DNA of 64,000 nt. Origin: Hymenobacter sp. CRA2. GTDB lineage: Bacteria; Bacteroidota; Bacteroidia; Cytophagales; Hymenobacteraceae. A program made the position numbers and the translations under genes. Under the pieces are notes generated by a model. That model was not told the DNA's origin. It searched no databases and saw only the letters and a program-made list of their open reading frames with translations. The stretch covers positions 1 through 64,000 of the forward strand of contig NZ_MVBC01000002.1 of NCBI RefSeq assembly GCF_002007105.1. The letters run 5' to 3'. Each line of letters opens with the position of its first letter. Position 1 is the stretch's first letter. Of this stretch, positions 10,284 to 38,848 are shown piece after piece.

Positions 10284-10442
10284 CGCCTCACCCCCTAGCT
10301 CCCTCTCCGAAAAGGAGAGGGGGAACTAGCTGCTAGTTTTCTAGAGCTAGATGCGTAGAAGGCATCGGACGAAAAAGTGCTAGAGCTATTTTTTAGGCTA
10401 GTCCCCCTCTCCTTTTCGGAGAGGGGGCTAGGGGGTGAGGCG
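10284..10442. repeat. Paired inverted repeats, MITE-like, related to the DUF559 unit ends
   Basis: 10284-10329 (CGCCTCACCCCCTAG, then the CCCTCTCCGAAAAGGAGAGG hairpin) is inverted at 10398-10442, which ends GGGTGAGGCG. About 68 bp of unrelated AT-richer DNA lies between. The same hairpin and flank bound the DUF559 unit at 20074-20681, so this looks like a gene-less member of that family. Confidence 0.75.
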
Positions 10443-20073: not shown

Positions 20074-20681
20074 GCGCCTCACGTGCGCCTCACCCCCCGG
20101 CCCCCTCTCCGAAAAGGAGAGGGGGAGCCTGACGACTTCTTTGCTTGGGGTGGTGTAGGTGCTGAGGCTTATGGTAGGTTGGCCTTGATGGCCTGGAGGA
20201 CTTTCTCGGTTTCGTTTAGGGCTTGGTTGTTGGAGAAGCGCAGGACGCGGTAGCCTAGCTCGGCCAGGATTTCGGAGCGCCCTTTGTCGTAGGCGGCCTG
20301 GTCGGGCTCCAGGTGGCCGGCGCCGTCTAGCTCCACTATCAGCTTGTGCGGGAGGCAGACGAAGTCGGCAATGAACCTATCGATGCTGTGCTGACGCCGG
20401 AACTTAACCCCTAGCTGGTTTCCGCGCAGCCGTTGCCAAAGCAGCTCTTCGGCCGGCGTGGGTTCGTGGCGCATCCCGCGTGAGCGGCCTTTCAGGTCGA
20501 GCTTGGCGTACAGCTTCCGGTCAGCGGTAAAGATTTTGTCCTGCGGCAGGTAAGGCTCATTGATTTCCATAGAATCAAATGGAATTGGAAACCAACAATC
20601 TACCCAAATCCGCCCGCGCCACCGTGGCTCCCCCTCTCCTTTTCGGAGAGGGGGCCGGGGGGTGAGGCGCACACGAGGCGC
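20074..20681. mobile_element. 608-bp unit with 56-bp inverted ends carrying a DUF559 gene
   Basis: 20074-20129 and 20626-20681 are inverted copies of 56 bp with two mismatches. Each contains the hairpin CCCCTCTCCGAAAAGGAGAG and the flank TGAGGCGCAC. The only gene inside is the DUF559 protein. The unit sits between two genes of operon D, 13 bp from the GH2 start codon and 4 bp from the stop of the upstream gene. No target-site duplication could be recognised, so mobility is inferred from structure. Confidence 0.6.
20169..20570 (-). CDS. DUF559 (restriction-endonuclease-like fold) protein
   Basis: A 133-residue protein of the DUF559 family, related to very-short-patch-repair-type nucleases. 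It shows PTPAEELLWQRLRGNQLG, FRRQHSIDRFIADFVC and KLIVELDGAGHLE, whose Asp/Glu and ExD residues fit a PD-(D/E)XK active site, then DKGRSEILAELGYRVLRFSN. The start at 20568-20570 (MEINEP) is preferred; a frame from 20672 would read through the inverted end of the surrounding unit and add LTPRPPLRKGEGE, a peptide encoded by the repeat. It lies inside a 608-bp repeat-bounded unit in a polysaccharide operon to which it has no functional link. Nuclease activity is predicted only. Confidence 0.85.
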   Translation of the reverse strand: MEINEPYLPQDKIFTADRKLYAKLDLKGRSRGMRHEPTPAEELLWQRLRGNQLGVKFRRQHSIDRFIADFVCLPHKLIVELDGAGHLEPDQAAYDKGRSEILAELGYRVLRFSNNQALNETEKVLQAIKANLP

Positions 20682-38490: not shown

Positions 38491-38843
38491 GCCTCCTCTG
38501 CATTCCGTCGTAAGATACAGAAGCCAAGCGTCAACAACAGCGGCAGCACTGGCTGTCATGGCGAGCAACGCGAAGCAACCGCAGGAAGGCGTAAGCCAAT
38601 CCTTCCTCTCGCGGCACGACGGTTAAACACGCGCCAACTGAAAACGGCACCGCCCGAAACCTGAGTTGCTGGTTTCGGGCGGTGCCGTTTTTGGGTAACA
38701 CGGAATCTAGCGGCGGTGCTACTGCAGGAAAGATTGCCGCGCTTCGCTCGCCATGACGGCTGGTGCTACGTCCTAGCCTGAAATCGTTCGGCTCCCCCTC
38801 TCCTGTTCGGAGAGGGGGCCGGGGGTGAGGCGCACACGACGCG
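38491..38843. other. Convergent intergenic region with terminator and repeats
   Basis: Lies between the 3' ends of the AraC gene and the aldolase gene. It holds an inverted pair of the TGTCATGGCGAGC type (about 38555-38580 and 38734-38756), a strong terminator (38641-38691), and a single copy of the DUF559-unit end (38790-38848). No gene is seen. Confidence 0.6.
38641..38691. terminator. Bidirectional intrinsic terminator
   Basis: A perfect 21-bp stem (38641-38661 with 38671-38691) of AAAACGGCACCGCCCGAAAC type, 9-nt loop, flanked by A and T runs on both sides. It serves the convergent AraC and aldolase genes. Confidence 0.85.
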
Positions 38844-38848
38844 CTACG
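38790..38848. repeat. Single copy of the DUF559-unit inverted end
   Basis: GGCTCCCCCTCTCC, then TTCGGAGAGGGGGCC and TGAGGCGCACACGA, matching 20626-20685 with three or four differences and one missing G. It runs over the stop codon of the aldolase gene at 38844-38846. Confidence 0.75.

Follow-up and report, generated by a model that had tools for sequence, protein, structure and literature searches.

At 20 kb in the window (the whole 64-kb stretch of DNA that was analyzed), a gene for a DUF559 nuclease of 133 aa, counted from its ATG (20169..20570, minus strand), was delineated by a PF04480 profile match and by orthologue comparison. It lies between two inverted hairpins in a candidate mobile unit of 582 bp (20087..20668, no strand assigned) with terminal GCCTCACCCC and GGGGTGAGGC. 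The ends of this unit were set by analogy, from in-frame copies in genomes G003 and G007 compared with empty sites and from the repeats of the unit's own genome. As stated in the original prediction, near-perfect inverted ends surround the gene: the left (20074..20129) and right (20626..20681) arms, both without assigned strand and each with 13 nt beyond the unit core, are 96% complementary over 56 nt at a separation of 496 nt, and they are unmatched elsewhere in a sliding scan of the window with the same geometry (623 positions), in which three on-unit positions scored 50 against an off-unit maximum of 15. The left hairpin (20101..20125, minus strand) has a homopurine/homopyrimidine stem of 10 bp and a loop of 5 nt, and the right hairpin (20630..20654, plus strand) is the same sequence inverted. 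At both ends, the stem CCCCCTCTCC and the loop TTTTC (which reads GAAAA on the opposite strand) precede CCGGGGGGTGAGGC. The tails point outward: the left one (20087..20100, minus strand) is a third-strand-like G-run, GGGTGAGG on the minus strand, whose likeness to the BoxC pattern, as quoted in the available part of PMC4666352, was judged by eye, and the right one (20655..20668, plus strand) reads CCGGGGGGTGAGGC. Many repeat copies of the window type, the window repeat included, carry a CGTC tag at their head.

DUF559, a domain of unknown function, is widespread. The window gene matches its profile (PF04480) at 113.8 bits, compared to a curated cutoff of 20.6, which confirms its earlier assignment as a DUF559 nuclease-like gene. 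Among the four orthologues, dN/dS ranges from 0.06 to 0.12, and the gene is under purifying selection. The repeat-encoded peptide LTPRPPLRKGEGE, previously read as an addition to the protein, is not a conserved part of the gene: in three of the four orthologues (G001, G002, and G006), it is upstream of a stop codon that separates the repeat from the conserved ATG. A structural model of the nuclease (mean pLDDT 75.6) reaches ~90 across most of the core, with weaker parts at residues 81-100 (61-75) and residues 1-33 (<50). Foldseek with this model returned as its top match 3hrl (1.6e-7), which is NGO0050 and bears the title "putative endonuclease-like protein", followed by I-Bth0305I (3r3p, 1.2e-4) and, at rank 7 after mitoribosomal chains, Vsr (6.8e-3); a profile search of solved structures gave 1e-37, 2e-5, and 0.15, respectively, for the same three. 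As modeled, the window protein is predicted to have a Vsr-like fold of the PD-(D/E)XK type, and residues D69, E80, H86, and D95, invariant in alignments of 42 and 35 rows, are candidate catalytic residues.

The hairpin recurs without the gene at both other places in the window where it had been predicted, namely as an inverted, REPIN-like pair at 10284..10442 (no strand assigned; hairpins 10299-10323 and 10403-10427) and as a single end at 38790..38848 (plus strand; hairpin 38794-38818). Just left of this single BoxC-type end is a separate repeat (38597-38763), for which G006 has an inverted match and G003 has matches in both orientations. Genome-wide (5.88 Mb, up to 3 mismatches), the count of copies with and without DUF559 gave 27 hairpin cores of the window type, compared to 0 for the reversed control pattern. 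These cores include three visible inverted pairs, one of which holds the gene. The two strong nucleases of this genome carry differing palindromes: the second gene (C44) is surrounded by CCCCTCCTCAnnTGAGGAGGGG hairpins with a GGGGTGGTT tail, and a pattern for its stem class finds 65 copies, the two patterns behind the counts of 27 and 65 being of unequal stringency. Weak PF04480 matches (G000:C11:560450-560701, L046, and L048) lie in ORFs of ~1650 aa that have no flanking inverted pair, and they probably belong to another protein family. A profile search for the Y1 transposase (PF01797) returned 0 matches in the genome and was positive in 5 of 14 control genomes; a resident RAYT is therefore an unlikely mover in this genome.

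The window aligns with four relatives, and nucleotide identity is 83-95% in most blocks. The 20-kb unit is present in G000, G001, G002, and G006, and both its gene and its repeats are missing from G003, where the gap is filled by other DNA and the start of the neighboring gene also differs. The pair at 10284-10442 is present in G000, G002, and G006 and missing from G001 and G003, which have other palindromic DNA. At the 38.8-kb site, the inverted pair is complete in G002 and G003 and degenerate in G006, G000 has a single end, and G001 has nothing. Wherever G001 or G003 lacks the pair or unit at the places orthologous to 10284-10442 and 20074-20681 (L201-L203, L208-L210, and L214), the intergenic gap contains another inverted repeat, TAGAGACGC... 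or GTCGAG..., a possible further mobile palindrome with a partner of its own. Orthologous loci without the unit do exist, in G003 at the 20-kb locus and in six of the eight genus genomes at a helicase site described below. The clean insertion point sought in the original prediction was borne out in part: sites without the unit were found, but their flanks are diverged or occupied by other repeats, the G003 gap is filled, and a search for a clean target-site duplication at the window orthologous sites and the helicase site found none.

An association of DUF559 with the repeat in related genomes, as had been predicted, was scored by the presence, no more than 400 nt from the gene, of a strict homopurine/homopyrimidine hairpin. 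Eight genomes of the genus have 19 strong DUF559 hits and 3 weak ones in ORFs of ~1650 aa. The strict hairpin accompanies 18 of the 19 strong hits, 16 of them on both sides, the exception being a divergent gene (L049), and no inverted pair above background was found at the 3 weak hits. A wider set from named genomes consists of the best 80 of at least 575 confirmed DUF559 matches and leans to Bacteroidota because a narrower alignment (A2) was used for the scan; it also spans Pseudomonadota, Acidobacteriota, Cyanobacteriota, Planctomycetota, Nitrospirota, Patescibacteria lineages, and others. Within these best 80 of at least 575, the hairpin is present in the left 400-nt flank of 62 of 80 loci and in the right one of 66 of 78 (two loci with <150 nt on the right were dropped from the right-side counts), and the 78 loci with both flanks scorable have it on at least one side in 72 cases and on both sides in 56. 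Single control windows 1300 nt away contain it in 7 of 147 cases, and the per-window test on the same best 80 of at least 575 sets 128 of 158 flanks against these controls (Fisher, 1e-46). The hairpin test is more sensitive than the inverted-repeat score alone, which reaches 16 or more at 38 of the 80 named loci (best of at least 575) and at 1 of 143 controls. Over all loci compared, 101 of 110 have a strict hairpin within 400 nt; the other nine are L049, L102, L106, L160, L163, L181, L183, L187, and L188, with inverted repeats that have A/T inside the stem at L102 and L106. In a class sample of 159 genomes, searched with one stem pattern, 27 are positive and 23 of these have PF04480, compared to 63 of the 132 pattern-negative genomes (Fisher, 5e-4); the four pattern-positive genomes without PF04480 are G098, G127, G154, and G158. 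Individual loci include one on a Sphingomonas parapaucimobilis plasmid (L103), where a DUF559 gene and BoxC-like hairpins lie between sufB and sufC in an iron-sulfur assembly operon. Distant DUF559 matches also occur in three phage records.

Judged from sequence comparison, the palindrome type follows the nuclease lineage. On the genus tree, palindrome types form clades, namely type C (100/91), type B (92/77, with a named-genome copy of the same gene), and type A (96/88), the last taking in both helicase-borne copies, which have A-type hairpins. In the genus (18 loci), the Mantel correlation is 0.77, where the best of 5000 permutations reached 0.49; across 101 loci it is 0.43, with 0.17 as the best of 2000 permutations. 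Three stem classes placed on the nuclease tree, with 78 labeled among 127 rows, require 11 changes, compared to a shuffled mean of 27.9, and none of 200 shuffles was as low. Matching of loop types between the resident nuclease and solo repeats was tried and rejected. Further copies were found in G002 for the loop type of each of its three A-type units; in G003, GAAAA- and TTAGGG-loop copies have no matching nuclease unit among the matches listed, and covariation is therefore claimed at the stem level only.

DUF559 units also occur inside coding genes. By hand count in the class genomes, 43 of the 150 PF04480 matches listed lie in ORFs of at least 600 aa. In all 17 long ORFs examined (15 class and 2 genus loci), DUF559 stands between host domains in one stop-free frame, the hosts being leucyl-tRNA synthetase (LeuRS; seven, at two places), methionine synthase (five, at two places), acetyl-CoA synthetase (Acs; two, at the same place), HsdR (one), and a UvrD-type helicase (two). 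A strict hairpin is present on at least one side at 14 of the 15 class in-gene loci and on both sides at 7, and the corresponding numbers for the 13 stand-alone class genes are 11 and 8; two of the 30 class loci, clipped at contig ends (L229 and L242), were dropped. Seven of the named loci lie in ORFs of at least 300 aa, and Pfam was run on five of them, L116 and L162 being left out. In the gene-interrupting copies, the hairpins encode linkers within the open frame (e.g., SPLSRGEGE). For LeuRS, the only strong match to the editing domain is in the interrupted ORF in all seven genomes searched; six of the seven also have a weaker second match, in a different ORF (879-929 aa). Restriction-modification genes are found repeatedly among the hosts, including HsdR, MmeI, and an N6/N4 methylase. 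In Methylomonas sp. (L177) and a gammaproteobacterial MAG (L186), DUF559 follows an N6 methylase domain in apparent HsdM genes, and these two nucleases are sisters (100/50) inside a starred clade.

The helicase site is occupied by the unit in G003 and G007, and the corresponding 60-nt stretch is unbroken in G000, G001, G002, G004, G005, and G006; behind the insertion site, the helicases of G002 and G003 have 95% identity across 457 aa. Intein junctions are marked by a Cys/Ser start and a His-Asn end, and on visual inspection no such motifs were noticed where the two helicase copies join their hosts. Units sharing a host site are often not one clade on the nuclease tree. The Acs site holds two non-sister nuclease lineages, and near-sisters are found in unlike hosts (L215 in LeuRS with L234 in Acs, 99/89; L225 in LeuRS with L236 in Acs, 94/94). 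This mismatch between host and tree fits ectopic movement combined with few tolerated sites, with some homing or descent.

The repeats flanking DUF559 genes can be compared to the BoxC or potential intrastrand triplex motif (TMECO). BoxC-type repeats have been reported in E. coli since the 1990s, and the available text of Holder et al. (PMC4666352) gives 3610 copies in 262 proteobacterial genomes, 23 of them in E. coli MG1655, at strongly variable sites; it describes their function as unknown, names no partner gene, and reports no association with mobile elements. The plan given there is a C-rich stem, a loop of 3-6 nt, a G-rich stem, a 3-nt loop, and a second G-rich run, and several DUF559-flanking palindromes have this plan in the form CCCTCTCCC-loop-GGGAGAGGG-nnn-GGGTGAGGG. 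Likeness to BoxC/PIT/TMECO, as portrayed in the same available text, consists of CCCTCNCCC-loop-GGGNGAGGG and a G-rich third run, together with inverted pairs and strain-variable copy number and sites; what differs is that a DUF559 partner is proposed here and that the class is widened to further stem types. The window repeat is alike in form, with a hairpin and a GGGTGAGG run, but its stem is CCCCCTCTCC, not CCCTCNCCC.

Near-BoxC forms flank the DUF559 gene in S. meliloti and in E. coli, where this gene is ycjD, situated between sapF and fabI, with one BoxC beyond the gene and a second overlapping its 3′ end. A long hairpin of a different kind lies at the start of ycjD in MG1655 (L192:1760-1802), and in E. 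coli ETEC6 (L200; record 1402490-1407759) an IS1 element splits ycjD. The ycjD region, used as a query, has a match in 3365 of the 5426 complete E. coli genomes. In a sample of 60 evenly spaced rows, two of which are small records, and with a query that combines BoxC and locus-specific DNA, the 37 rows that match the ycjD locus in full have 14-31 BoxC-like places (median 20), compared to 2-19 (median 4) in the 21 chromosome-sized rows without a match, a contrast confounded by phylogroup. Of these 21 rows, 7 hold 15-19 places (one labeled O157:H7) and 14 hold 2-8. According to the available part of PMC12817139, ycjD is conserved in phylogroups A, B1, and C (plus ST69 and ST182), and the eef operon occupies its place elsewhere.

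The arrangement resembles that of RAYTs and their REPs and REPINs (IS200-like Y1 enzymes, GTAG repeats), in that one nuclease gene is surrounded by inverted palindromes, gene-less pairs and singles are dispersed, and enzyme and repeat types covary. It differs in the enzyme, which has a predicted PD-(D/E)XK/Vsr fold rather than that of a Y1 HUH transposase, and in the homopurine/homopyrimidine stems, which have a GGGTGAGG-type tail and at which no GTAG tag was noticed. The likeness to REP-associated transposases drawn in the original prediction holds as an analogy only: the unit's own genome has no PF01797 match. The stem of CGTC-type REPs is ATTCCCGC-like. No stem of this type was noticed in the DUF559 flanks of Azospirillum and Sinorhizobium, where these genes, unlike CGTC-tagged REPs, have BoxC-type stems, and identity with CGTC REPs is therefore not claimed. 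DUF559 as a CGTC-REP partner was also considered as the main reading and was set aside because alphaproteobacterial DUF559 flanks show BoxC-type stems. REP superfamilies have been described, and CGTC-tagged REPs, which share inverted pairs and the head tag with many copies of the window type, are said to lack a dedicated transposase in the available text of PMC3733652, in which the term DUF does not occur. Palindromic elements of Rickettsia likewise insert in frame within coding genes, as described in the available part of PMC10969869, but the palindromes of the present units enclose a nuclease gene. As for the protein family, the available portions of earlier reports term a Thermosynechococcus DUF559 gene an EDxHD homing endonuclease (PMC9403480) and link YcjD to Vsr (PMC1189080). 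No report pairing DUF559 with palindromes was found in the literature searched, a partial set with subscription journals largely outside it.

The association of gene and hairpin, the covariation of nuclease lineage and palindrome type, the presence or absence of units at orthologous sites, the dispersed gene-less copies, and the in-frame insertions point to a reading that we regard as probable: a mobile gene of the Vsr/homing-endonuclease fold mobilizes BoxC-class palindromes, in a RAYT/REP-like manner with an unrelated enzyme. The 582-bp unit would be a mobile element of minimal make-up, in which two inverted BoxC-class palindromes enclose a nuclease gene of the Vsr/EDxHD fold. The nuclease, probably a dimer on the two inverted ends, would recognize and cut its cognate palindrome type or an empty target, and repair or re-insertion of the cut ends would give rise to copies with or without the gene at other places. 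The pairs that lack the gene and the single hairpins would be non-autonomous derivatives that are mobilized in trans, as has been proposed for REPINs and RAYTs, and copies landing in frame at a tolerated place could persist as translated insertions. Cleavage, movement, and the spread or upkeep of the palindromes would thereby be attributable to the nuclease itself.

Two alternatives are weaker than this mobile-unit reading. It is unlikely that the nuclease acts by homing only, cutting unit-less alleles at one fixed site that is then filled by repair copying, with the scattered palindromes as debris. EDxHD homing endonucleases such as I-Bth0305I are indeed the nearest characterized fold and share selfish insertion in conserved genes, and the same helicase site is filled in G003 and G007 by sister nucleases (99/94). 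However, the palindromic ends, the dispersed gene-less copies, and the in-frame in-gene copies set the present units apart, near-sister nucleases in LeuRS and Acs and the two lineages at the one Acs site do not fit a fixed target, and gene-less copies outnumber units, with 27 and 65 hairpins for 2 strong genes in the unit's own genome. We consider it rather doubtful that the palindromes spread otherwise, by replication slippage, recombination, or a RAYT, with DUF559 hitchhiking or being kept, for example, as a nuclease of structure-specific or mismatch-repair type that can tolerate or trim hairpin or triplex DNA. Such a role would accord with the palindromes in some genomes without PF04480, with the link of the motif to genome instability, with no partner gene named, in the available text of PMC4666352, and with the Caulobacter DUF559 protein VsrA, which the available part of PMC12907096 reads as a Vsr-type mismatch-repair enzyme. 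It is opposed by the type-by-type covariation of nuclease and palindrome, by the lack of a Y1 transposase match in the unit's own genome, and by gene-carrying units within coding genes that have the palindromes at their flanks. That the hairpins are no more than terminators or regulatory elements of a resident nuclease gene in an immobile arrangement is highly improbable, even though they are frequently near the gene on both sides, because the empty helicase sites contradict it, as do the presence or absence of units and pairs at orthologous sites, the hairpins within host-protein open frames, and the count of about 160 A-type hairpin places compared to 11 A-type DUF559 genes in the eight genus genomes.

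The mobile-unit reading has a broader form, to which we give about an even chance, namely that DUF559 nucleases are dedicated mobilizers of bacterial BoxC/intrastrand-triplex palindromes, including those of E. coli K-12, and insert in frame and unspliced into essential proteins such as LeuRS. Nuclease and palindromes would then make up a class of mobile element whose palindromes are spread by an enzyme of restriction fold instead of an HUH transposase. If true, REP-like palindromes would have not only Y1 transposases but also an unrelated nuclease as partners, and nuclease genes would be carried within essential proteins without introns or inteins. The pairing of DUF559 with BoxC makes both testable in E. 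coli K-12 via ycjD, and the DUF559 gene family may be the missing partner of long-known, unexplained bacterial DNA repeats.
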